A stretch of DNA of 35,782 bases from Prosthecobacter sp. (lineage in GTDB: Bacteria; Verrucomicrobiota; Verrucomicrobiia; Verrucomicrobiales; Verrucomicrobiaceae): contig JAUREI010000017.1 of NCBI GenBank assembly GCA_030827515.1, positions 1-35,782 on the forward strand, written 5' to 3'. The notes under the pieces were generated by a model. That model saw only the letters and a list, made by a program, of their open reading frames with translations. It did no database searches and had not been told where the DNA came from. Both the position numbers and the translations under genes were made by a program. Every line of letters begins with the position of its first letter. The first letter of the stretch is position 1. Shown here one piece after another: positions 10,636 through 27,528 of this stretch.

Positions 10636-12249
10636 ATGTCTGCCGCCTCTGAAATCGCCCGCCGCCGCACCTTTGCCATCATTTCGCACCCTGACGCGGG
10701 CAAGACGACGCTGACTGAAAAGCTGCTCCTCTACGGCGGCGCGGTGCAGTTGGCGGGCAGTGTCACGGCGCGCAAGAACCAGCGCGCGACCACCTCTGAC
10801 TGGATGGAGCTGGAGAAGCAGCGCGGTATTTCGGTGTCATCGACGGTGCTGCAGTTCGAGTACAAGGACTGCGTGGTCAACCTGCTCGACACCCCGGGCC
10901 ACAAGGACTTCTCCGAGGACACCTACCGCGTGCTCACCGCGGTTGATGCGGCGGTCATGGTCATCGACGCCGGCAAGGGCATCGAGGCGCAGACCCTGAA
11001 GCTGTTTGAGGTCTGTCGCCGCCGCGGCGTGCCGATCTTCACCTTCATGAACAAGCTTGACCGGCCGGCGCGGCCGCCACTCGAGCTGCTCGATGAGCTG
11101 GAGCGGGTGCTGGGCATCGCCTCCTGCCCGATCAACTGGCCGCTCGGCGACGGCGTCGATTTCAAGGGTGTGTACGACCGCGAGACGCGTCAGGTGCACC
11201 TTTTCGAGCGCACGGTCGGCGGCAAGTTCCGCGCGCCGGTGAACGTCCAGGACATCCACGATGATGCCGTGCGCGACGCCTTGCCGCCGCTGGTGTACGC
11301 CCGGGTCTGTGAGGAGCTGGAGCTGCTGGAAATGGTTGGCGCGCCGTTCTCGATGGACAACATCCGCAAGGGCCAGTTGACGCCGGTGTTCTTCGGCAGC
11401 GCCATGAACAATTTCGGGGTGCAGCTCATGCTCGACCGTTTCCTCGATCTGGCGCCGCCGCCGGCGCCGCGCCAGGTGGGCGAGGAGATCCTCATGCCGG
11501 AGAACCCGGCCTTCAGCGGTTTCGTCTTCAAGATCCAGGCGAACATGAACCCGCGCCACCGCGACCACGTGGCCTTCATCCGCATCGTCTCCGGCTGCTT
11601 CCAGCGCGACATGAGCGCGATCAACACCCGCACCGGCACGAAGATGCGCCTGGGTAACTCGCAGCGGCTGTTCGCTCAGGAGCGCGAGACGGTGAACGAG
11701 GCCTGGGCCGGCGACGTTGTTGGCTTGGTCGGCAATTACGGCTTCCAGATTGGCGACACGCTGGCGGAGGATCCCAAAATTCGCTTCGACGAGATGCCGC
11801 GCTTCGCGCCCGAGTGCTTTGCCTACCTGCACAACGAGAACACCTCGAAGTTCAAGCGTTTCCGCGACGGCCTCGACCAGTTGCTCAAGGAGGGGGTTGC
11901 ACAGCCCTTTGAGTTGCCCGACGCCGCCGTGCGCGTGCCCCTGCTCGGCGCCGTGGGTCCGTTGCAGTTCGACGTCCTGAAATACCGGCTTGAGACCGAG
12001 TACAACGCCGAGGTGCGCCTTGAGTTCGCTCCCTGGACCCTGGTGCGTTGGTTGCGTGAGAAAAACCCGGCGGACAAGCCGAAAGCAAAGGAGACAAACC
12101 CGCGTCCCGAATTGGCCGCCTCCTATGGCACCACGCTCGCGCTCGACAGTGCCAACCAGTGGGTGGCGCTGTTCAGCGACAAGGTGAGCTGTGGCTATTT
12201 CGAGACCAAGAACGCCGACAAGTTCGACATCAGTCCCTATCCGTTCTGA
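10636..12249 (+). CDS. prfC: Peptide chain release factor 3 (RF3 GTPase)
   Basis: A 537-residue translational GTPase that recycles RF1 and RF2 from the ribosome after peptide release. The G motifs are clear: SHPDAGKTT (G1, near residue 18), the switch region around RGISVSSTVLQF (G2), DTPGHKDFSED (G3) and FMNKLDRP (G4). The sequence ARKNQRATTSDWMELEKQRG is diagnostic of RF3 rather than EF-G. The C-terminal part carries the RF3-specific domains, including GPLQFDVLKYRLETEYNAEV. The length is normal (about 530). The ATG at 10636 begins the conserved N-terminus (MSAASEIARRRTFAIISHPD). The gene starts 69 bp after the protease gene, and its last 13 bases overlap the 3' end of the convergent hydrolase/glycosyltransferase gene. 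Confidence 0.97.
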   Translation: MSAASEIARRRTFAIISHPDAGKTTLTEKLLLYGGAVQLAGSVTARKNQRATTSDWMELEKQRGISVSSTVLQFEYKDCVVNLLDTPGHKDFSEDTYRVLTAVDAAVMVIDAGKGIEAQTLKLFEVCRRRGVPIFTFMNKLDRPARPPLELLDELERVLGIASCPINWPLGDGVDFKGVYDRETRQVHLFERTVGGKFRAPVNVQDIHDDAVRDALPPLVYARVCEELELLEMVGAPFSMDNIRKGQLTPVFFGSAMNNFGVQLMLDRFLDLAPPPAPRQVGEEILMPENPAFSGFVFKIQANMNPRHRDHVAFIRIVSGCFQRDMSAINTRTGTKMRLGNSQRLFAQERETVNEAWAGDVVGLVGNYGFQIGDTLAEDPKIRFDEMPRFAPECFAYLHNENTSKFKRFRDGLDQLLKEGVAQPFELPDAAVRVPLLGAVGPLQFDVLKYRLETEYNAEVRLEFAPWTLVRWLREKNPADKPKAKETNPRPELAASYGTTLALDSANQWVALFSDKVSCGYFETKNADKFDISPYPF

Positions 12250-14759
12250 AGGTCCCGCCCGCAGGTTTGCAGGCCCGCGCGACCGGCGGCGACCCGGATG
12301 CTGTGATGAAGCGTGCTGCGTGCGATGAGGACAACGGCGGCCGTGCTCAGGCCGAGCGCGGCGAGGCCGATGCAGGCGGGTTCGCTGCCGGCGGCGGCAT
12401 TCCAGGCTAGCAGACCCAGAGTGCCTGCGAGAACGAGGGCGAGCAGTGGCGGGAATCGCAACTGGCTGCGCACGCGCAGCAGGCAATGCTCGTCACGGTG
12501 GTATTCCTCGACGGTGAGGATGGCCGGCGAGAGATCGGCCTCAGGACGGAGTTCAAGATCAAAATCCTGCCAGCCGTCGTCGCCGCGCACCGCCCCGTGG
12601 ACAGCGCGCACGCAGGTCTCGAACTCGCGAAGGAAGGCCTCGCGGCACGGTCCAGCCTCGCTCCAGAACGGTTGTTCGCCCAGGGGCAGGACCCACTTGG
12701 GGCTTGGCGAAGGGGAGGCCTGCCAGCAGGGACCACGGCCTGGCGCGGCGCCAAGGTCGAGCATGCCAAGCAGGCGCGCGCCTTCGCGCACGAGCGGCTG
12801 CAGCCAGCACAGGACGAGGCGCAGCAGGCGTTCACGCACACTGAGCCGGAAGGGGGCGGGCGGCAGATGGCGGGCACGACCGGCGGCGAGCAGCCAGGAA
12901 GCGGCAAAGACGCCCGCTGCGAACGCTGGCAGACCCAGGGCGAGAAAAAGCACGGCCAGGGCCACCCAGATCAACCCGCTGAACCAGTCGGCCCAGCAGC
13001 GCGGACCTTGTTGGTAGATGCCCTGAAACAGCCCCAGGCCGAATGGGCCGTGAAAAATGCGCCCGGGAGCGAGGTCGCCACCGGTCTGATCGCCGTAGAT
13101 GCCGCCGCTCCAGCGTGCGCCGCCAAGCAGGCCGAATCGCTGCGGATGATCCTTCATTAACAGGGCTTCGGCACGGCCATAGCCGGCCTGCTGGCGCAGG
13201 TAGGCTCGCGTCTGATAGCGGCGATGGTGCCAGACCATGGCCCCGGGCGCGTAGCGCAGACGCCCCCCGGCTTCACGCAGGCGCCAGCAGACATCGACAT
13301 CGTCACCGGCCGCGACATAGGGGGCATGGAAGCCGCCGATTTCCAGCAGCGCCTTCTTGCGGATCGCGAGGTTGCAGCCGGGCAGGTGCTCGGCTTCGAC
13401 GTCGTCGAGCAGCACATGCACCGGGGCACCGGGTGCGGCGGCGACGACGGCTTCGGTGCGGTTGCGCGGCGGTGGCGGGATGTTGGGGCCGCCGGCGGCG
13501 ACCCATTGCGGATCGTCGAAGGCTTCGGCGAGCCGGTCGAGCCAGTCCGGTTCGGCCAGGCAGTCATCATCGGTGTAGGCGAGGATGTCGCCCGTGGCGA
13601 GTTTGGCTCCGAGATTGCGTGCGGCGCTCAGTCCGGCGTGATCCTGACGATGGCAGCAGACGAACGGGAAGGCCCGGGCGATCGCGGCGATGTCCTGGGT
13701 TGAACCGTCGTCGATGAGCAGGACTTCGTGATCCGGATGGCTCAGCCGGCCGAGTGAATCGAGGCAGGCGCGCAGGGTCGCGCCACCATTGTGGGTGCAG
13801 ACGATGACGGAAAAACGCGCCCGAGCGGCTGGCGGCGGTGCGAGCTCTTCAAGGCAGGCCTGGCAAACCGGTCGCTCGCGGCGGTCGGCATCGACGAGAC
13901 CGAACCGCCAGCCCTCCACCGTGCGCCCTCCCCGGTGCCATTCGTCGGTGTAACTGAACCAGACTTCGCCGGCAACGGCCGCCGCCTTGAGTGCGGCCCG
14001 CTGCTGGAGCAGGGCTTCGGCCTGGGCCGCTTCACCGTGTCGGGCGGCATCGAGCCCGTGTTCGGTGATCACGAGAGGCTTGTTGCCCGCGAGATTTTGC
14101 AGGCGCAGAAGGTAGGCGCGCAGGGCCGACGGGTCTTCGAGATAGACGTTGCAGGCCACCCAGTCGGCATTGCGCGGGATGAGATACTCGGTGCTTGGGT
14201 AGCCGGCGTAACTGAACAGCCGTTCCGGCGCGGCGGCCCGACCGACCTCGATGAGTTCCTCCAGAAAATCGCGGACACGCGCCGGACCAAGCCAACGCAC
14301 GAGGGTCTTTTCGATCTCGTTGCCGATCAGGATTGCCGCGACCTCCGGATGGCTGGCCAGCCGCGCAGCCTCGTCACGCACCGCAGCGAGGATCTCGCGC
14401 CGCCCCTGCGGGTGGCGCAGAAAATCGACGTGATCGGTCCAGGAGACGCCGACCAGCAGGTGCAGGCCTTCGCGGCCCGCGGCCTTGAGCACGGCGTCGC
14501 TGGGCGGTTGATAGACACGCACCGTGTTGAAGTTCAGCCGACGGATGCGGGCAAAATCTTCCGCCAGCCGGTCATCGGTCGGGAAGGGTTCGCCGCGAGG
14601 ATTGGACTGAAAGGGTCCATAGCTGACACCGCGAAGGTGCCAGCGCGCGCCGCCGGCACGCAGCCACTTGCCGGCCGTGGTGACAGCGGTGGGTGGCGGC
14701 GTGGATGGCGGCGGCATTCGGGTCCCAGTCAAGCATGGACGTGCGGCGGGGCAAAGCAT
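12237..14759 (-). CDS. Glycoside hydrolase (GH2/GH5-like TIM barrel) fused to GT2 glycosyltransferase, membrane protein
   Basis: About 840 residues with two catalytic domains. Residues about 25-300 look like a clan-A TIM-barrel glycosidase: WHLRGVSYGPF, FNTVRVYQPP, then IGNEIEK with E148 as likely acid/base and ITEHGLDA with E233 as likely nucleophile. A GT2 domain follows from about 316: FSVIVCTHNGGATLRACLDS, LLIDDGST, AYTDDDCLAEPDW as the DxD-like metal site, DDVDVCWRLREAGG, and QAGYGRAEALL near the usual Q-x-x-R-W region. Two membrane spans and a C-terminal region with two more spans complete it. A role in making or trimming a cell-surface polysaccharide is inferred. The start is uncertain: GTG at 14792, ATG at 14759 or ATG at 14717, none with a good ribosome-binding site. 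Its stop lies inside the end of prfC. Confidence 0.8.
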   Translation of the reverse strand: MLCPAARPCLTGTRMPPPSTPPPTAVTTAGKWLRAGGARWHLRGVSYGPFQSNPRGEPFPTDDRLAEDFARIRRLNFNTVRVYQPPSDAVLKAAGREGLHLLVGVSWTDHVDFLRHPQGRREILAAVRDEAARLASHPEVAAILIGNEIEKTLVRWLGPARVRDFLEELIEVGRAAAPERLFSYAGYPSTEYLIPRNADWVACNVYLEDPSALRAYLLRLQNLAGNKPLVITEHGLDAARHGEAAQAEALLQQRAALKAAAVAGEVWFSYTDEWHRGGRTVEGWRFGLVDADRRERPVCQACLEELAPPPAARARFSVIVCTHNGGATLRACLDSLGRLSHPDHEVLLIDDGSTQDIAAIARAFPFVCCHRQDHAGLSAARNLGAKLATGDILAYTDDDCLAEPDWLDRLAEAFDDPQWVAAGGPNIPPPPRNRTEAVVAAAPGAPVHVLLDDVEAEHLPGCNLAIRKKALLEIGGFHAPYVAAGDDVDVCWRLREAGGRLRYAPGAMVWHHRRYQTRAYLRQQAGYGRAEALLMKDHPQRFGLLGGARWSGGIYGDQTGGDLAPGRIFHGPFGLGLFQGIYQQGPRCWADWFSGLIWVALAVLFLALGLPAFAAGVFAASWLLAAGRARHLPPAPFRLSVRERLLRLVLCWLQPLVREGARLLGMLDLGAAPGRGPCWQASPSPSPKWVLPLGEQPFWSEAGPCREAFLREFETCVRAVHGAVRGDDGWQDFDLELRPEADLSPAILTVEEYHRDEHCLLRVRSQLRFPPLLALVLAGTLGLLAWNAAAGSEPACIGLAALGLSTAAVVLIARSTLHHSIRVAAGRAGLQTCGRDLQNG

Positions 14760-16773: not shown

Positions 16774-17823
16774 ATGGCCACAGTGCCCGCCACCCTTCAG
16801 GACATTGCCAACAGGACCGGCGTTTCGGTGATGACGGTGTCGCGCGCCCTGCGCGGGCAGAACCGGGTGGCGGCGACGACCCGGGAGCGCATTCTGGCCG
16901 CAGCGCGTGAACTCGATTATCAGCCCGACCCGCATCTGGCACGCCTGATGGGGTTGGTGCGCGCCCGCAAGCAGGTGCGCATTCGCGCCGTCATCGCCGT
17001 GATCCGTGAGGACGTGCCCGAGGATGGCCTGCTAACGCCATCCTATCAATACGTGCCGATCGAGGACATCCGCCGGCGCGCCCGCGGGCATGGCTACGAG
17101 GTTGAGGAGTTCTGGCTCGGGCGCGATGGCATGACCCCGCGCCGGTTGCAGAAGATCCTGCATGCACGCGGCATCGAGGGAGTCATCGTTTCGCCGCAGA
17201 GTCTGCAACTGCCCTGTGCCCGGCTCGACTATGCCCCCTTCGCTGCGGCCGCGTTTGGCTATGCCATGCGCGAACCGGCCCTGCACATGTGTGCAGGCAA
17301 CATGACGCTCGGCATCCAGACGGCGGCGAGGGAACTCGTGGCGCGCGGCTACCGCAGGATCGGCGTGGCGGTGACCCAGTGGATTGTCAACCGCTCCCAG
17401 TTCGGCTACAGCGGCGGCCTGTTTCACTGGCAGCAGGACCTGCCGGAGGGCGAGCGCGTGCCGATGCTGCTGTTTCCCGACAATGACATTAGCCGGGGCT
17501 ACGAAGTCTTTGCGCGGTGGATGCGGGCACACCGTCCCGACGCCCTGATCACCTTTGACACCCATGTGCCCGCCTGGCTGCGCCGGCTTGGCCTGCGCAT
17601 CCCGGAGGACCTTGGTTTTGTCGCCCACGACTGGACGCCTCGCATGCCTGAATTTGCCGGCATCTACCAGCAGCGCGACCACCTCGCTGCGGCTGCGGTG
17701 GATCTGGTGGTCACCCAGTTGTCGCAGAACGAACGCGGGGTGCCGGAGGTGCCGCGCCAGATCATGGTCCCCCCGAGATGGGTCGAGGGGCCGAGTGTGA
17801 GGAAACGCAGCGGTGACGAATGA
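16774..17823 (+). CDS. LacI family transcriptional regulator
   Basis: A 349-residue repressor-type protein. Residues about 6-40 form the LacI helix-turn-helix plus hinge: ATLQDIANRTGVSVMTVSRA is the diagnostic motif, followed by RERILAAARELDYQPDP. The remainder is a periplasmic-binding-protein-like effector domain with GIEGVIVSP, FAAAAFGYAM and a C-terminal EDLGFVAHDW, close to the family's usual IGFD-type strand. The start at 16774 puts the motif at the normal distance from the N-terminus; 36 extra upstream residues would not. It is divergent from eda, so a sugar acid or its breakdown product is a reasonable guess at the inducer (inference). Its end is 19 bp from the convergent AraC gene. 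Confidence 0.93.
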   Translation: MATVPATLQDIANRTGVSVMTVSRALRGQNRVAATTRERILAAARELDYQPDPHLARLMGLVRARKQVRIRAVIAVIREDVPEDGLLTPSYQYVPIEDIRRRARGHGYEVEEFWLGRDGMTPRRLQKILHARGIEGVIVSPQSLQLPCARLDYAPFAAAAFGYAMREPALHMCAGNMTLGIQTAARELVARGYRRIGVAVTQWIVNRSQFGYSGGLFHWQQDLPEGERVPMLLFPDNDISRGYEVFARWMRAHRPDALITFDTHVPAWLRRLGLRIPEDLGFVAHDWTPRMPEFAGIYQQRDHLAAAAVDLVVTQLSQNERGVPEVPRQIMVPPRWVEGPSVRKRSGDE

Positions 17824-17842
17824 CGAACCGAGAACCCGTGTG

Positions 17843-18754
17843 TCAGGCCGCTTCCGTGCCGCCGGCCCGGCAGGCGGAGGGTGACTGACCTGTGTGACGA
17901 CGGAACCAGGCGGTGAAGTGTGAGGCATGGCGGAAGCCGAGGCGGAAGGCGACGCTCTTGAGGGGGTCGGTGCCCGCGAGCACGAGTTCACGGGCGGTGG
18001 TGAGTCGTCGGCGTTCCCACAATTCGCGCAGGCCAAGGCCGAGATGTTGGCGCAGCAACTGGTCGGACCTTCGCGGGCCAAGAGAAAACTCCGGCGGCAG
18101 GGAAGGGGTGGCTTGTTCCAGTGGCAGCGAGTTGATCCAGACGAGCAGGCGGTCGATGAGACGGCGACTGCGGTCGGCGCGCGGTTCGGGCACGACCCCG
18201 GCGTTGTGCAGGCATTCCAGAGCGATCGCCAGCCAGGCCAGGAAGGCGCCGTCATGAACGGCCCAGCCTTCCGCCGGTCGCGCCTTTGGCAGGATGGCTT
18301 CGCGGTAGGTCACCACCCGGCGGCCGGGGTGGATCTGGCAGAACAGGCGCAGGGTGGCCTTGTGCAGGACCGGTGAATCGAGCACGAGATTGAGGCCCGA
18401 GTTGAGCAGGGGCGCGCCATCCGGCCAGGTGCCGCGAAAGCCGACCGAAAGCAGGCGCGTCCCCGGCGCAAACCACTGCCGGCGCAGACCGGGCTTGGAA
18501 AAGAACGCCTGTCCGGAAGTCACGACGATCTCGCGATCCTCGGCGTGGATCTTTGCCTCGCCTCGCTCGACGAAAAACACGCCCGGCGGCACGGTGATAT
18601 CGCCCGACCATTGGCCTGTCACCGGCACCGGCCCGCGATACACCCACAGCCACTCGTGGCGTAGGCTGCTCCAAGCTTCGGGTGACAGGCTGGGCGGCAT
18701 GCGACAGCATGGCGGAAGCGCCCCACCGTGCAAGCACTGGGCGATGTAAGTCAT
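17843..18754 (-). CDS. AraC family transcriptional regulator
   Basis: A 303-residue protein with a two-part AraC layout. The N-terminal half is a cupin-like sensor region (SGDITVPPGVFFVERGEAKI, then PGLRRQWFAPGTRLLSVGFRG). The C-terminal 100 residues hold the two helix-turn-helix motifs, with LRELWERRRLTTARELV and the signature VAFRLGFRHASHFTAWFRRH. The start is uncertain: ATG at 18754 (used here) or ATG at 18700 (MPPSLSPEAWSS); neither has a Shine-Dalgarno sequence. It is divergent from the large secreted protein starting at 18814. The 60-bp gap contains GC-rich CCGG-type repeats but no clear pair of AraC half-sites. Regulation of that neighbour is likely by layout; the inducer is unknown. 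Confidence 0.88.
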   Translation of the reverse strand: MTYIAQCLHGGALPPCCRMPPSLSPEAWSSLRHEWLWVYRGPVPVTGQWSGDITVPPGVFFVERGEAKIHAEDREIVVTSGQAFFSKPGLRRQWFAPGTRLLSVGFRGTWPDGAPLLNSGLNLVLDSPVLHKATLRLFCQIHPGRRVVTYREAILPKARPAEGWAVHDGAFLAWLAIALECLHNAGVVPEPRADRSRRLIDRLLVWINSLPLEQATPSLPPEFSLGPRRSDQLLRQHLGLGLRELWERRRLTTARELVLAGTDPLKSVAFRLGFRHASHFTAWFRRHTGQSPSACRAGGTEAA

Positions 18755-18813
18755 TTCAAGCAGGCATAACAGCCGGCGGTTGCCGGTCGGCCGGTTCGGG
18801 CTTTGCTGGGCGG

Positions 18814-21153
18814 ATGAAGTTCCGCCTGTTCCTCCCCCTTCTTGCCGCCTGTTCCGCCGGCCTGCTGCACGCCCAGAAGCCACGCCAGATCAGCGGCATT
18901 GTCCCGTCGCTGGCCATGTTCAACAACGAGGGCGAGTGCGGTACTGGCGCGGTGGTGCCCTGGGCTGGGCGGCTCTGGGTTGTCACCTATGGTCCGCACC
19001 TGCCCTTCGGTTCCAGCGACAAGCTCTATGAAGTCACCCCGGACCTGCGGCAGATCGTGCGACCCGAAAGCGTGGGCGGCACGCCGGCGAATCGTCTCAT
19101 TCATCGCGAGTCGAACCAGCTTTTCATCGGTCCCTATGCGATCGATGCCGACGGCGCGGTGCGGGTGGTGCCGCCTAGCCGCATGCCCGGCCGGCTCACC
19201 GGCACGGCGCGACACCTGACCGATCCGGCGAACAAGGTTTATCATGCGACCATGGAGGAGGGACTGTACGAGGTGGATGTGCACACGCTGGCCGTGCGCA
19301 GCCTGATCCGAGACGGCAATCCGCTGAAGGCCGGGTTCAAGGTCGAAACCCCGCTAACCGAACTTGAATCGCAACTGCCGGGGTATCACGGCAAGGGTCT
19401 GTATTCCGCACAGGGTCGGCTGGTTTATGCCAACAATGGCGACCGGGACAAGCGCGTGCTCACCGACCCAACCACGCCGAGCGGCGCCCTCGCCGAATGG
19501 ACGGGTGAGGGGGACTGGCAACTCGTCCGTCGCAACCAGTTCACCGAGGTCACCGGGCCCGGGGGACTGGAGGGCAGCCAACCGGAGGACCCTCTCTGGA
19601 GCATCGGTTGGGATGCCAAGTCGCTGCTGCTCATGCTGCTCGACGGCGGTCGCTGGCAGAGTTTCCGTCTGCCCAAGGTGAGTCACAGCTACGACGGCGC
19701 CCACGGCTGGAACACGGAATGGCCGCGCATCCGCGACATCGGCGAGGACGACCTGCTCATGACCATGCACGGCGCCTTCTGGCGATTCCCACGCACCTTC
19801 TCCGCAGGCAACACGAGCGGCATCCGCGTGCGCAGCGCCTACCTGAAGGTCATTGGCGACTTCTGTCGCTGGCACGATCGACTGGTGTTTGGCTGTGATG
19901 ACTCGGCGAAGTCAGAGTTCCTCAACAAGCGCCGGGTCAAGGGCGGCATCGACAGCATCGGCCAGTCGCAGAGCAACCTCTGGTTCACCGATCCCGCCAC
20001 GCCCGGTCAGTTGGGGCCCGCCCACGCCAGCGGCTCGGTCTGGTTGCGCGAACCGGTCAAACAAGGCGAGAAAAGCGATCCCTTCCTCGTCGCCGGCTGG
20101 AGTCACCGCAGTCTCTGGCTGGTGGATCATGCCGCCGGAACCGCGGAACGCCGGGACATCGCCGCCGACGTCGAGTGGCTCACCGTCGAGGCGCCCGGCG
20201 ATAGCGCCGAGTTCAGTGCCATCCTCACGCTCAGCAACGCTGATCCACGCGGCAGCAAGGCCGATCCGGTCTTTGATGGCATCGCCCGCATCGGCGAGAC
20301 GGCGGTGCAGACCGGTGTGTTTCGTCCGCGTGGCGACAACAAGCGAACGCTCAGTTTTGCCGCCGACGCGGGGTACTACGAACTCGACGGCGACCTGCAC
20401 CTGCGGCGCGTCCAGGATCCCGCTGCCGACGCGTGGGTGAAGAACAAGGTGGCCATCCCCAAGGAGGTGGTCACCCTCGACAAGGCAAGCGTGCTCGTGG
20501 TCGACGATCGCGGCCGGCGCTGGCGCCTGCCCCGCGCCAGCCGCGCCCTGGACGAAGCGACCCGCGGCGGCGAGTTGCGCCTGTGCCGCGAGGTCGCCAC
20601 CGAACGCGACATGCTCAGCGTGGCCGGCACCTTCTTCGAATTGCCGGCGGAAAACGCCGACGGCTTCGCCAAGATCCGGCCGGTGTGCTCGCACGACCTG
20701 CGGGTCACCGACTTCGGCGGTTACCGGGGTCTCCTGATGATCAGCGGCATTCGTCCCGACGCCCCGGCCGGTGAGCACATCCTGCGCAGCGACGATGGCA
20801 AGGCGGCGCTTTGGGCAGGGGTCATTGACGACCTGTGGAAGCTTGGCAAGCCGCGTGGCGAAGGCGGGCCGTGGAAGGACAGCCAGATCAAGGCCGGCGA
20901 GGCCAGCGATCCCTACCTGCTCTGGGGGTATGACCGCCGATCCCTGACCCTTGAGCATGACCTCAATGTGCCGCAGCACTTCCGTGTCGAACTCGATCTC
21001 ACCGGCACAGGCGTCTGGGTCACCTGGCAGCACCGGGAGGTGTCGCCCGGCGAGCAGGTCCGCCTCGAGCTTGAGCCCGCCGTTCAGGCGCGCTGGCTGA
21101 GGGTCACCGCCAGCGAGGATTGCACCGCGACCGCCTGGTTGACGTATGAGTGA
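18814..21153 (+). CDS. Large secreted protein of unknown function with propeller-like N-terminus and repeated C-terminal module
   Basis: A 779-residue exported protein; residues 1-19 form a signal peptide ending in LLHAQ. I cannot assign a named family. The N-terminal half has short beta-rich segments with aromatic-Gly turns (GRLWVVTYG, RLVYANNGDRD, LLMTMHGAFWRFPR), consistent with a beta-propeller. Two related segments occur further on: GEKSDPFLVAGWSHRSLWLV near residues 417-436 and GEASDPYLLWGYDRRSLTLE near 694-713. The second leads into a final beta-sandwich-like stretch ending TATAWLTYE. Similar SDP(F/Y)L-G-RSL endings occur, as I recall, in uncharacterised Planctomycete and Verrucomicrobial secreted proteins. 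The start at 18814 is set by the signal peptide. The divergent AraC gene is the likely regulator; the neighbouring sialidase-like gene suggests a glycan-related role (inference). Confidence 0.85.
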   Translation: MKFRLFLPLLAACSAGLLHAQKPRQISGIVPSLAMFNNEGECGTGAVVPWAGRLWVVTYGPHLPFGSSDKLYEVTPDLRQIVRPESVGGTPANRLIHRESNQLFIGPYAIDADGAVRVVPPSRMPGRLTGTARHLTDPANKVYHATMEEGLYEVDVHTLAVRSLIRDGNPLKAGFKVETPLTELESQLPGYHGKGLYSAQGRLVYANNGDRDKRVLTDPTTPSGALAEWTGEGDWQLVRRNQFTEVTGPGGLEGSQPEDPLWSIGWDAKSLLLMLLDGGRWQSFRLPKVSHSYDGAHGWNTEWPRIRDIGEDDLLMTMHGAFWRFPRTFSAGNTSGIRVRSAYLKVIGDFCRWHDRLVFGCDDSAKSEFLNKRRVKGGIDSIGQSQSNLWFTDPATPGQLGPAHASGSVWLREPVKQGEKSDPFLVAGWSHRSLWLVDHAAGTAERRDIAADVEWLTVEAPGDSAEFSAILTLSNADPRGSKADPVFDGIARIGETAVQTGVFRPRGDNKRTLSFAADAGYYELDGDLHLRRVQDPAADAWVKNKVAIPKEVVTLDKASVLVVDDRGRRWRLPRASRALDEATRGGELRLCREVATERDMLSVAGTFFELPAENADGFAKIRPVCSHDLRVTDFGGYRGLLMISGIRPDAPAGEHILRSDDGKAALWAGVIDDLWKLGKPRGEGGPWKDSQIKAGEASDPYLLWGYDRRSLTLEHDLNVPQHFRVELDLTGTGVWVTWQHREVSPGEQVRLELEPAVQARWLRVTASEDCTATAWLTYE

Positions 21154-21191
21154 GGTGGAGGGCTGAGGTCGTCCAGCATCGCGCGCTGTTC

Positions 21192-22982
21192 CTACGGCGC
21201 GAGTTCGGCGAGCGGGATCACCGCCAGCTCGGCGCTGTTGTTGTTCCAGAGTTCGCGACCCTCGCCGATGCGGCCGACGTTGCCGCCGTTGTTGGAGTAG
21301 CCGACGTAGAGATGACCCTCATGCTCGATGGCGTAGGGATAGGACAGGGAGACGCGCGCATGGGATTCGCCGGGCCCCTCGGGGAAGAGGGCGTGACGAA
21401 TGACGCAGACCCTGCTGAACTCGGTTTCGCCCGGGCGACTGACCGCGATCGTCAGCGGGGCTCGTCGTCCCCCGCCGTCGGCGCTGGTGCTGCAGACGAG
21501 GTAGCGCTGACCGGTGCTCAGGATCCCCGCGTAAGGTTTGCTGGTCGCCATGGGCAGATTGCTCGGGCGCATGAGCGTCCAGGTGCGGCCGTAGTCCTCG
21601 CTTGTGGCGGTCAGGGCGTTGGCCTCGGCACCGTAGCGGCTGAGGTTGGTGATGCGACTGCCCTCGACGAGGACCGTGGATTCGCCCCAGACCGTGCCGA
21701 GATCGGCCACTTGCGGGATGCGCACGAGATCCCACTTCAGGAGGTTGTCACCCTGGCTGATCGCCACTGCGGCCGGATGCCTGCCGCCGGCCGGTGCATC
21801 ACCCCCGGCGGATATGCCGGCCAGGATCCAGTTGCCGTTGTTCATGCGGATCGGCTCCTGCATGGGCCAGAATCCCCCCTTCAAAACGACGCCGAGCTGG
21901 TCGAAACTGCCGGTGGCTTCATTGAGCCGGTAGGCACGGGTGTGGACTCCCACCATCGTGCCGGTGTAGGCGCCCATGAAGGCCCAGAGCGTGCCCTTGT
22001 GGGAGAGGAAGACTCCGTGGCTGACTGCGACCTTCGGTCCGCCGTCATCCATCGTTTGCACCGCGCTCCAGGTGTGGCCCTGGTCGTCGCTCACACAAAA
22101 GCGTGCCTCCTCGGTGTCGGTGTTTTCTCCACCCTGATTGTGGCCAAAGCTGGCGTACAGCCGGCCCTTGTGGAATGCCAGACCAACTCCGTGCAGGAAG
22201 CGGTAGCGGTCCTTGCGGAATTCATAGGGTTTGATCACCGAGAAGCGCACGTTCCTGAGCACGGGCAGGTCGGCGGCCTTCGGCACCGGCTGCCGCTCAT
22301 TCCACAGCACCGCCTTGTGGACCGGTTCCGGCACGGGCAGGGTCGCGGTCACGGGTTGGTGGAGCGCGGCCAGTTCCGTGGCCGAGAGCGAGCGCGGCTC
22401 AAAGCGTGCCTCGTCAAGCCCACCGGCAAAGGTTTGCCGGGGGACACCATCAAGCACGCCACCGAGGGTGATCGGCGCGGCGCTGACGGGCATGGCCTGC
22501 GGCAAGTCGGTCCGCCCTTCCAGTTCCCCGTTCACCCAGAGTTCCATGGTCCGATCCCGACGCACCACGCTGATCAAGTGCCAGCGACCCGCCACAGGCT
22601 CGGTCTTGGCGGTCACGGTTTGCCAGCCTTTCTGCTGGACGTAGAGACGGAAGCGTCCGTCGGCGTCCACCATCACTCCCCATTCGCGCTCGCCGCGGCT
22701 GTAGCGGTTTTTGGCGGCGATCATGCGCTGGACATCGCGCAGCCGCACGGGATTGCACCAGACAGTGAAGGTGAAGTCACCGGTCGATCCGAGCGTGGCG
22801 GAATCCGCCAGTTCGAGCGAGCTGTGCCCGTCGAGCAGCAGCGCCCGATCCCGAACCCCATCGATCACCCTGGTTTCACCGTGCAGGCGCAGGCCCGGCT
22901 CACCGGGCGCGTCCAGGGGCCAGTGCGCGGCGTGCAGCGGCAGGGCGATCGAAAGCAGCAGGCAGGACTTCAACGAGGGCAT
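21192..22982 (-). CDS. Secreted sialidase-like protein with N-terminal LamG/concanavalin-type domain
   Basis: A 596-residue exported protein. After a signal peptide (to about residue 18) comes a laminin-G/concanavalin-like carbohydrate-binding domain (about 20-200: FTFTVWCNPVRLRDVQRMIA, MELWVNGELEGRTDL, GGLDEARFEPRSLS). The rest resembles a six-blade sialidase propeller. Two Asp-boxes are visible: SDDQGHTW near residue 297 and SEDYGRTW near 460. The canonical FRIP arginine motif is not clear; the corresponding place reads YRFLHGVGLAFHKGRLY. Exo-acting glycosidase activity on a sialic-acid-like or other sugar is therefore possible but unproven. It is the last gene of the minus-strand run, 55 bp after the tRNA, and converges on the 779-residue protein gene. 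Confidence 0.8.
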   Translation of the reverse strand: MPSLKSCLLLSIALPLHAAHWPLDAPGEPGLRLHGETRVIDGVRDRALLLDGHSSLELADSATLGSTGDFTFTVWCNPVRLRDVQRMIAAKNRYSRGEREWGVMVDADGRFRLYVQQKGWQTVTAKTEPVAGRWHLISVVRRDRTMELWVNGELEGRTDLPQAMPVSAAPITLGGVLDGVPRQTFAGGLDEARFEPRSLSATELAALHQPVTATLPVPEPVHKAVLWNERQPVPKAADLPVLRNVRFSVIKPYEFRKDRYRFLHGVGLAFHKGRLYASFGHNQGGENTDTEEARFCVSDDQGHTWSAVQTMDDGGPKVAVSHGVFLSHKGTLWAFMGAYTGTMVGVHTRAYRLNEATGSFDQLGVVLKGGFWPMQEPIRMNNGNWILAGISAGGDAPAGGRHPAAVAISQGDNLLKWDLVRIPQVADLGTVWGESTVLVEGSRITNLSRYGAEANALTATSEDYGRTWTLMRPSNLPMATSKPYAGILSTGQRYLVCSTSADGGGRRAPLTIAVSRPGETEFSRVCVIRHALFPEGPGESHARVSLSYPYAIEHEGHLYVGYSNNGGNVGRIGEGRELWNNNSAELAVIPLAELAP

Positions 22983-23037
22983 GGCAAGCCTACGTCTGGC
23001 ACGCGCCGCTTCATGCGACTCTCAGGCACCCGTCGAG

Positions 23038-23110
<73 letters not shown>

Positions 23111-23116
23111 GTGGGT

Positions 23117-26521
<3,405 letters not shown>

Positions 26522-26562
26522 GGCGGCGGACTGGGGATGGGGGCGGGTCGGCGGCTGAACCA

Positions 26563-27528
26563 TCAGAGGCGCTTGCGGGCGTCGAGCAGGGCGGCTTTCA
26601 GCTCCTGGATTTTGGTGTCGGCCTGCTGGATGAGCGGGTCGAACATGGGGATCTCACGGGCGTTTTGGCCCTGCTCATGTTTGCGGAAACCGAAAAGGTA
26701 GGTCTCGTTTTGGGGGCGCCAGCGGTTGAAGAAAAGTTCGTCCTTTTGCAGCACCTCGCGGCGAAGCGGTTCAAGTTCGGCGGCGGTGACCTGCGGGGCC
26801 TGCAGGCCGAGGCCTTCCAGCAGCTTCTGGCTGAGCTTGTCATAGCCCGTCGGCGAGTAGTGAACACCGTTTTCGGTCAGGGGGGCCGGGCTAACGCCGG
26901 GTTTGGGCACACCGCCCATGAGCTCGAACCAGTCGACGAAAAAGGCGTTCTGGGCAGCGGCGAACTTGCGCAGGGCGTCGCGAAAGCTGGCCAGCGCCTT
27001 GTTGGCGTCGGTCTGGTCCGGCAGCGGAGGCGGCAGCGTTTCCAGCGGCGGGGGCGAGGCGATGATGAGGCGGACGCCCGGGGCTTTACGGCGGATCAGT
27101 TCAAGCAGGTTGCGGTATGCGGTCAGGAAATCGGGCAGGCCGTTGAGTCGGTCGAAGCCCATTTCCGAACCGTAACACAGCAGGACCACGGTGGGTTTCA
27201 GCAGTTCCAGATGTTTTTCCAGACGTTCCAAACCCTCCTTGGGCGGTCCGAAGTAGGAGCGGGCATGACCAAAGACAGTGTCGCCACTCCAGGCCAGGTT
27301 GCGGACGCTGACCTTGGTTTCACCCAGTGCGAGTGCCAGGGACGGTTCGAAGCTGGCGTAGCGCTGCTCGCGCTCAAGCACCGTGCTGCCCAGCAGAACC
27401 AGACGATCGCCGCTCTTGAATTCGAAACGCTTTTTCTCGGCCGGCGCAGGCGGGGGCGCGGCGGGTTCCTGCGCGACAGCGGCGAGGGCGAGGCCGGTCC
27501 AGGCGGTGAAAAGGACGTTGCGGATCAT
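26563..27528 (-). CDS. SGNH/GDSL-hydrolase-like exported protein
   Basis: A 321-residue exported protein with a signal peptide (MIRNVLFTAWTGLALAAVAQ) and a short Pro/Ala linker. The fold matches SGNH hydrolases: GDRLVLLGSTVLEREQRY holds block I, LAWSGDTVFGHA block II, VVLLCYGSEMGF block III, and NGVHYSPTGYDKL block V. The catalytic pattern is altered from the textbook form: block I reads GST instead of GDS, and the Asp of DxxH is replaced in NGVH. Block I of this PVC subfamily is commonly variant, so esterase activity is uncertain. A helical C-terminal stretch (QADTKIQELKAALLDARKRL) ends the protein. It precedes the PVC haem protein gene and is probably co-transcribed with it. Confidence 0.82.
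   Translation of the reverse strand: MIRNVLFTAWTGLALAAVAQEPAAPPPAPAEKKRFEFKSGDRLVLLGSTVLEREQRYASFEPSLALALGETKVSVRNLAWSGDTVFGHARSYFGPPKEGLERLEKHLELLKPTVVLLCYGSEMGFDRLNGLPDFLTAYRNLLELIRRKAPGVRLIIASPPPLETLPPPLPDQTDANKALASFRDALRKFAAAQNAFFVDWFELMGGVPKPGVSPAPLTENGVHYSPTGYDKLSQKLLEGLGLQAPQVTAAELEPLRREVLQKDELFFNRWRPQNETYLFGFRKHEQGQNAREIPMFDPLIQQADTKIQELKAALLDARKRL

Follow-up and report, generated by a model that had tools for sequence, protein, structure and literature searches.

A conserved Verrucomicrobiae fusion of a clan GH-A glycosidase-like barrel and a GT2 glycosyltransferase, with both predicted active sites in one membrane protein

The window analysed here is the whole stretch of 35,782 nucleotides of contig JAUREI010000017.1 from Prosthecobacter sp. 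On its minus strand, the frame running from 14759 to 12237 comprises 840 codons and a stop by translation, and encodes a fusion of the domains listed below.

12237 to 14759, minus strand: GH-A barrel/GT2 fusion gene, 840 aa (translation, ORF list, homologues)
13842 to 14684, minus strand: clan GH-A (beta/alpha)8 barrel, GH157-like, residues 26-306 (profile against PDB, AlphaFold, VIA)
14316 to 14318, minus strand: E148, predicted acid/base, in N147-E148 after strand 4 (invariant in 135 distinct homologues; strand positions)
14061 to 14063, minus strand: E233, predicted nucleophile, at the end of strand 7 (invariant; same column as E224A of LaGH157, 9g4n)
13140 to 13817, minus strand: GT2 glycosyltransferase domain, residues 315-540 (PF00535, E 1.9e-27)
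13563 to 13571, minus strand: D397-D399, metal-binding DxD motif (D397 and D399 invariant)
12870 to 12998, minus strand: first membrane hairpin, residues 588-630 (hydropathy; model helices 596-607 and 611-631)
12453 to 12695, minus strand: small soluble C-terminal module, residues 689-769 (model; no Pfam match)
12309 to 12467, minus strand: second membrane hairpin, residues 765-817 (hydropathy; model helices 771-789 and 793-827)

The start codon may be ATG 14759, ATG 14717 or GTG 14792, the last of which would add 11 aa according to the ORF list, and homologues vary in this stretch. At its stop, the frame shares 13 bases with the end of the convergent gene for release factor RF3, and a beta-lactamase-fold gene begins 36 bases from the fusion gene on the opposite strand. 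Besides these, the neighbours include KDPG aldolase and similar proteins, the remaining ones being unrelated to glycans. Named relatives of the fusion gene were found in Prosthecobacter, Brevifollis and other Verrucomicrobiaceae. Elsewhere in the window, two large plus-strand frames without a Pfam match (18682-21153, 823 aa, and 21150-23078, 642 aa) overlap by 4 bases and could be a two-gene operon; a 407-aa minus-strand frame (17032-18255) likewise had no Pfam match, and 23117-26563 encodes a protein of 1148 aa with DUF7133 and HEAT repeats.

When the barrel was searched as a single sequence, Pfam returned a weak match to GH72 (E 0.017) within a mixed set of weak hits, and its family could be named only after a profile had been built from 46 homologues. 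The best match of this profile in the PDB was the GH157 enzyme LaGH157 (9fz9, E 1.8e-25), followed by GH2 glucuronidases, GH158 and GH72 glucanosyltransferases, and members of the barrel family matched the GH72, GH2 barrel, cellulase and 'catalytic core' models of Pfam. Structure prediction gave the same picture. The AlphaFold model was matched to LaGH157 with a Foldseek E of 7.9e-14 and a VIA Z of 31.3, and the barrel folded alone (pLDDT 93.6) had LaGH157 as its best VIA match (9g4n, Z 30.4, 2.6 A over 279 residues). Membership of clan GH-A is firm. Since a GH2 beta-glucuronidase scored only ca. 1 unit lower (Z 29.1), assignment to GH157 is a lean from sequence and model rather than a finding, and the fold lists past GH157 and GH2 were not taken to exclude further families.

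The AlphaFold model with DSSP places an Asn-Glu pair after strand 4 and a Glu where strand 7 ends, which is the arrangement of retaining clan GH-A enzymes. Both E148 and E233 were invariant in all 135 distinct homologues. Among the 119 homologues less than 90% identical to one another, no other glutamate of the barrel was invariant, whereas R81, W107, N147, N204 and W274 were. E233 shares its alignment column with the glutamate that the depositors of LaGH157 changed to alanine (E224A). The barrel, at ca. 19% identity to GH157, aligns with LaGH157 at the nucleophile and acid/base positions. Conservation of the two glutamates shows that the site is in use, but does not tell the type of reaction.

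The GT2 assignment is unambiguous: PF00535 matched residues 317-471 with 96.7 bits against a cut-off of 23.3. D397 and D399 were invariant in the 135 distinct homologues, and D486, D487, H511, R514, Q523, Q524 and Y527 were invariant as well. The window protein lacks QxxRW, a motif typical of processive synthases. The closest named NCBIfam family for this domain was MftF (TIGR03965, E 1.1e-49), and the domain is 37% identical over 235 aa to an MftF of Thermomicrobium.

AlphaFold folded the whole chain with a pLDDT of 83 and a pTM of 0.83, as a GH-A barrel followed by GT2 and two late hairpins. Hydropathy and the model revealed no membrane span before the barrel or between the barrel and GT2, which are joined by a linker of ca. 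10 residues, and the window protein has no signal peptide. Nucleotide-sugar-using GT2 enzymes act in the cytoplasm. Because the barrel is joined to such a domain without a span, it should be cytoplasmic as well, and the orientation of both active sites towards the cytoplasm is well supported by this reasoning from sequence and model. By hydropathy, several relatives carry only the first hairpin, and all eight Akkermansiaceae members analysed lack any span. In two homologues, apparent N-terminal hydrophobic stretches fall within stop-to-stop extensions that had not been trimmed; in another (L021), a marginal one covers the linker and the first GT strand. In the C-terminal module, W699, R706, D734 and E752 are more than 90% conserved; this module appears to be retained in the Akkermansiaceae homologues that have lost the hairpins.

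With the window protein as query (E <1e-40), 27 of 288 sampled genomes of the phylum matched, all of them in one class. A more central query matched 236 of 384 genomes of class Verrucomicrobiae, in 113 of 171 genera, and some of the matching genomes are as small as 1.3-1.7 Mb. No fusion match came from the 20 genomes of a single genus, seemingly Akkermansia. A plasmid collection searched with the full protein yielded GT2 hits only and no fusion. Both domains were present in all 171 extracted homologue records, 135 of them distinct. Strong family matches to a barrel-only profile were confined to frames of ca. 800-900 aa. Pairwise identities of barrel and GT2 across the homologues were correlated at 0.90, which, together with the presence of both domains in every homologue, argues for one old fusion event. 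The recurrence of the fusion in so many genomes, several of them single-contig, rules out an assembly or gene-calling artefact. The initial annotation, made from the letters alone, had described a glycosidase and a glycosyltransferase in one chain, with a clan-A-like TIM barrel keeping E148 and E233, a GT2 domain with a complete-looking DxD region, and C-terminal membrane spans. This description stands for the window protein, and the existence of the fusion, its domains, the retention of its active sites and its class-wide conservation are well supported.

The same annotation had stated that the gene stands alone. This is true of the window but not of the family at large, as was seen from a neighbourhood survey of 88 loci (ca. 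1.7 Mb). In 15 of them, representing nine families, an ABC exporter gene lies next downstream on the same strand, with its match starting -28 to +95 bp from the fusion gene; the two genes overlap or lie a few bases apart. These exporters carry the Pfam domains ABC_membrane and ABC_tran, and only three other matches to them occurred in the ca. 1.7 Mb of neighbourhood. The exporter was not linked in the other 73 loci, nor in Verrucomicrobiales, the order to which the window belongs. Four genomes in which the fusion gene is not linked to it carry a clear relative of the exporter elsewhere (51-57%, far above paralogues). Three of these four exporters (L209, L210 and L212) are followed by a GT-B-like gene, and in two cases a hexapeptide transferase gene lies between. 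In L158 and L190, too, the exporter is followed by this GT-B-like gene, which in L156 comes after the fusion gene itself. No family name was found for the GT-B-like genes, some of which match Glyco_trans_1_2 weakly. The partner genes are located as follows.

L158, 5801-6982: GT-B-like gene
L209, 9644-12099: GT-B-like gene
L210, 10794-11969: GT-B-like gene
L212, 6455-7621: GT-B-like gene
L156, 6181-8516: GT-B-like gene
L210, 10141-10794: hexapeptide acyltransferase gene, between ABC exporter and GT-B-like gene
L212, 7685-8269: hexapeptide acyltransferase gene, between ABC exporter and GT-B-like gene

Other recurring neighbours (QueA-like, SAICAR-synthetase-like, thymidylate-synthase-like and aminotransferase-like) were rejected as partners, as they look common or housekeeping when read from sequence. 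In Verrucomicrobiales, this genome included, the best exporter match was ca. 35-40%, no better than in genomes without the fusion, and no distinct ortholog was seen; a single-query search found no GT-B-like relative in this genome. An export step is therefore supported in parts of the class, and is no more than possible in this organism.

The most likely reading, to which we give a probability of roughly 0.5, is a two-active-site enzyme with a coupled build-and-edit mechanism. GT2 would transfer a sugar (glucose, with UDP-glucose as donor, being the likeliest) to an acceptor on the cytoplasmic face of the membrane, giving a short oligosaccharide, perhaps of beta-gluco type. The barrel would then trim, transglycosylate or cyclise this product, setting its length or shape. 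In lineages with linked genes, an MsbA-type ABC exporter may take the product through the membrane, and another enzyme, GT-B-like, may add to it. In Verrucomicrobiales, including the organism of the window, the product may remain inside or take another exporter, because no distinct ortholog of the exporter was found there. What the substrate and the product are can be guessed at from the similarities to GH157 and MftF, and the link to glucose comes from remote similarity (ca. 19% identity to GH157; 169.6 bits to MftF against a cut-off of 280). A coupled synthesis-editing machine for a surface polysaccharide had been suggested for this gene. Two predicted active sites in one chain are supported, and the coupling of building and cutting is plausible, but a surface synthase working through the membrane is not supported for a protein with no span or signal peptide between its domains, no QxxRW and a two-hairpin anchor that is missing in one family.

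Several other explanations were weighed. The barrel may bind sugar or serve as a scaffold without being catalytic, presenting the acceptor to GT2; aromatic and acidic residues would be conserved in a binding site too, and a GH-like module in the cytoplasm beside a GT would be unusual. Yet across 135 distinct sequences, with barrel identities as low as 30% between pairs, neither the two catalytic glutamates nor the accessory residues of clan GH-A vary, which makes this explanation improbable. It is likewise unlikely, if slightly less so, that GT2 attaches its sugar to a small molecule or a cofactor, in the manner of MftF with mycofactocin, and that the barrel only removes or recycles the sugar. 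The closeness of the GT domain to MftF, although under the cut-off, and the missing processive-synthase motif are in keeping with such a role; on the other hand, this genome contains no mycofactocin maturase above its cut-off, and the exporter adjoining the gene in nine families suggests that the product is exported.

We consider it quite improbable that the two domains act on unrelated substrates and are fused only for joint expression or membrane location, as the barrel is always fused in this family and the two domains have diverged in step. A trans-membrane machine like NdvB, with GT2 polymerising in the cytoplasm and the barrel cutting or cyclising in the periplasm, would account for both kinds of domain in one chain and for a barrel whose relative acts on beta-1,3-glucan, as GH17 does. 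The short span-free linker, the lack of a signal peptide and of QxxRW, and the wholly span-free Akkermansiaceae homologues make it very unlikely.

The coupled build-and-edit enzyme can be extended to a wider proposal: a class-wide Verrucomicrobiae enzyme whose building and reshaping steps both take place on the cytoplasmic side and yield an oligosaccharide for export, which could be a cyclic or branched beta-glucan. An ABC exporter dedicated to it and a new partner of GT-B-like type would complete the system, as a solution independent of Cgs and NdvB. This proposal is tentative, and we regard it as possible rather than probable. Most genomes sampled from this large class, which has been little studied, retain the gene, and its product is probably something on which the cells depend. 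The candidate partners named here (ABC exporter, GT-B-like protein and hexapeptide acyltransferase) make the pathway testable. In the literature, we found no paper on this fusion protein and no GH-GT2 fusion other than those with GH17. If both sites share one product, the protein would be a further, separately built fusion of transferase and glycan-editing domains, and to our knowledge the first in which a GH157-like barrel lies on the cytoplasmic side.

Among known proteins, LaGH157 (PDB 9fz9, 9g4n and 9g5g) is the best profile and fold match, with a clan GH-A barrel whose nucleophile and acid/base align with those of the window protein; it differs by its low identity and by having neither a GT2 domain nor a membrane anchor. 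Another GH157 member, BcellWH2_01931 of Bacteroides cellulosilyticus, is a cell-surface endo-beta-1,3-glucanase (PMC10229575). MftF has a similar GT2 domain but no hydrolase domain, and the window protein scores below the curated cut-off of TIGR03965. A BcsA-type processive synthase was also rejected: the window protein has no Q(Q/R)xRW and two hairpins instead of a multi-span channel, and the Akkermansiaceae homologues have no span.

In the Pseudomonas NdvB or 'Orphan' GH17-GT2 cyclic beta-glucan synthase, GH17 is periplasmic and a membrane region lies between GH17 and GT2 (PMC10237404). The window protein resembles it in carrying a beta-glucan-type GH barrel N-terminal to GT2 in one membrane protein. 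It differs in its GH157-like barrel and in having both domains on the cytoplasmic side, and, as no span precedes or separates these domains, it fails as a member of the NdvB type. The transferase and glycan-editing domains of Cgs are all cytoplasmic, and its glucan is then passed to a transporter (PMC10901819). The layout is similar in that transferase and editing domains share one cytoplasmic chain, but the Cgs transferase is GT84, its editing domains are of other kinds and it has six spans; Pfam found no phosphorylase domain in the window protein, where GT2 and a clan GH-A barrel were found. By the features tested, the window protein is Cgs-like in its working layout and NdvB-like in the kinds of its domains, and belongs to neither family.
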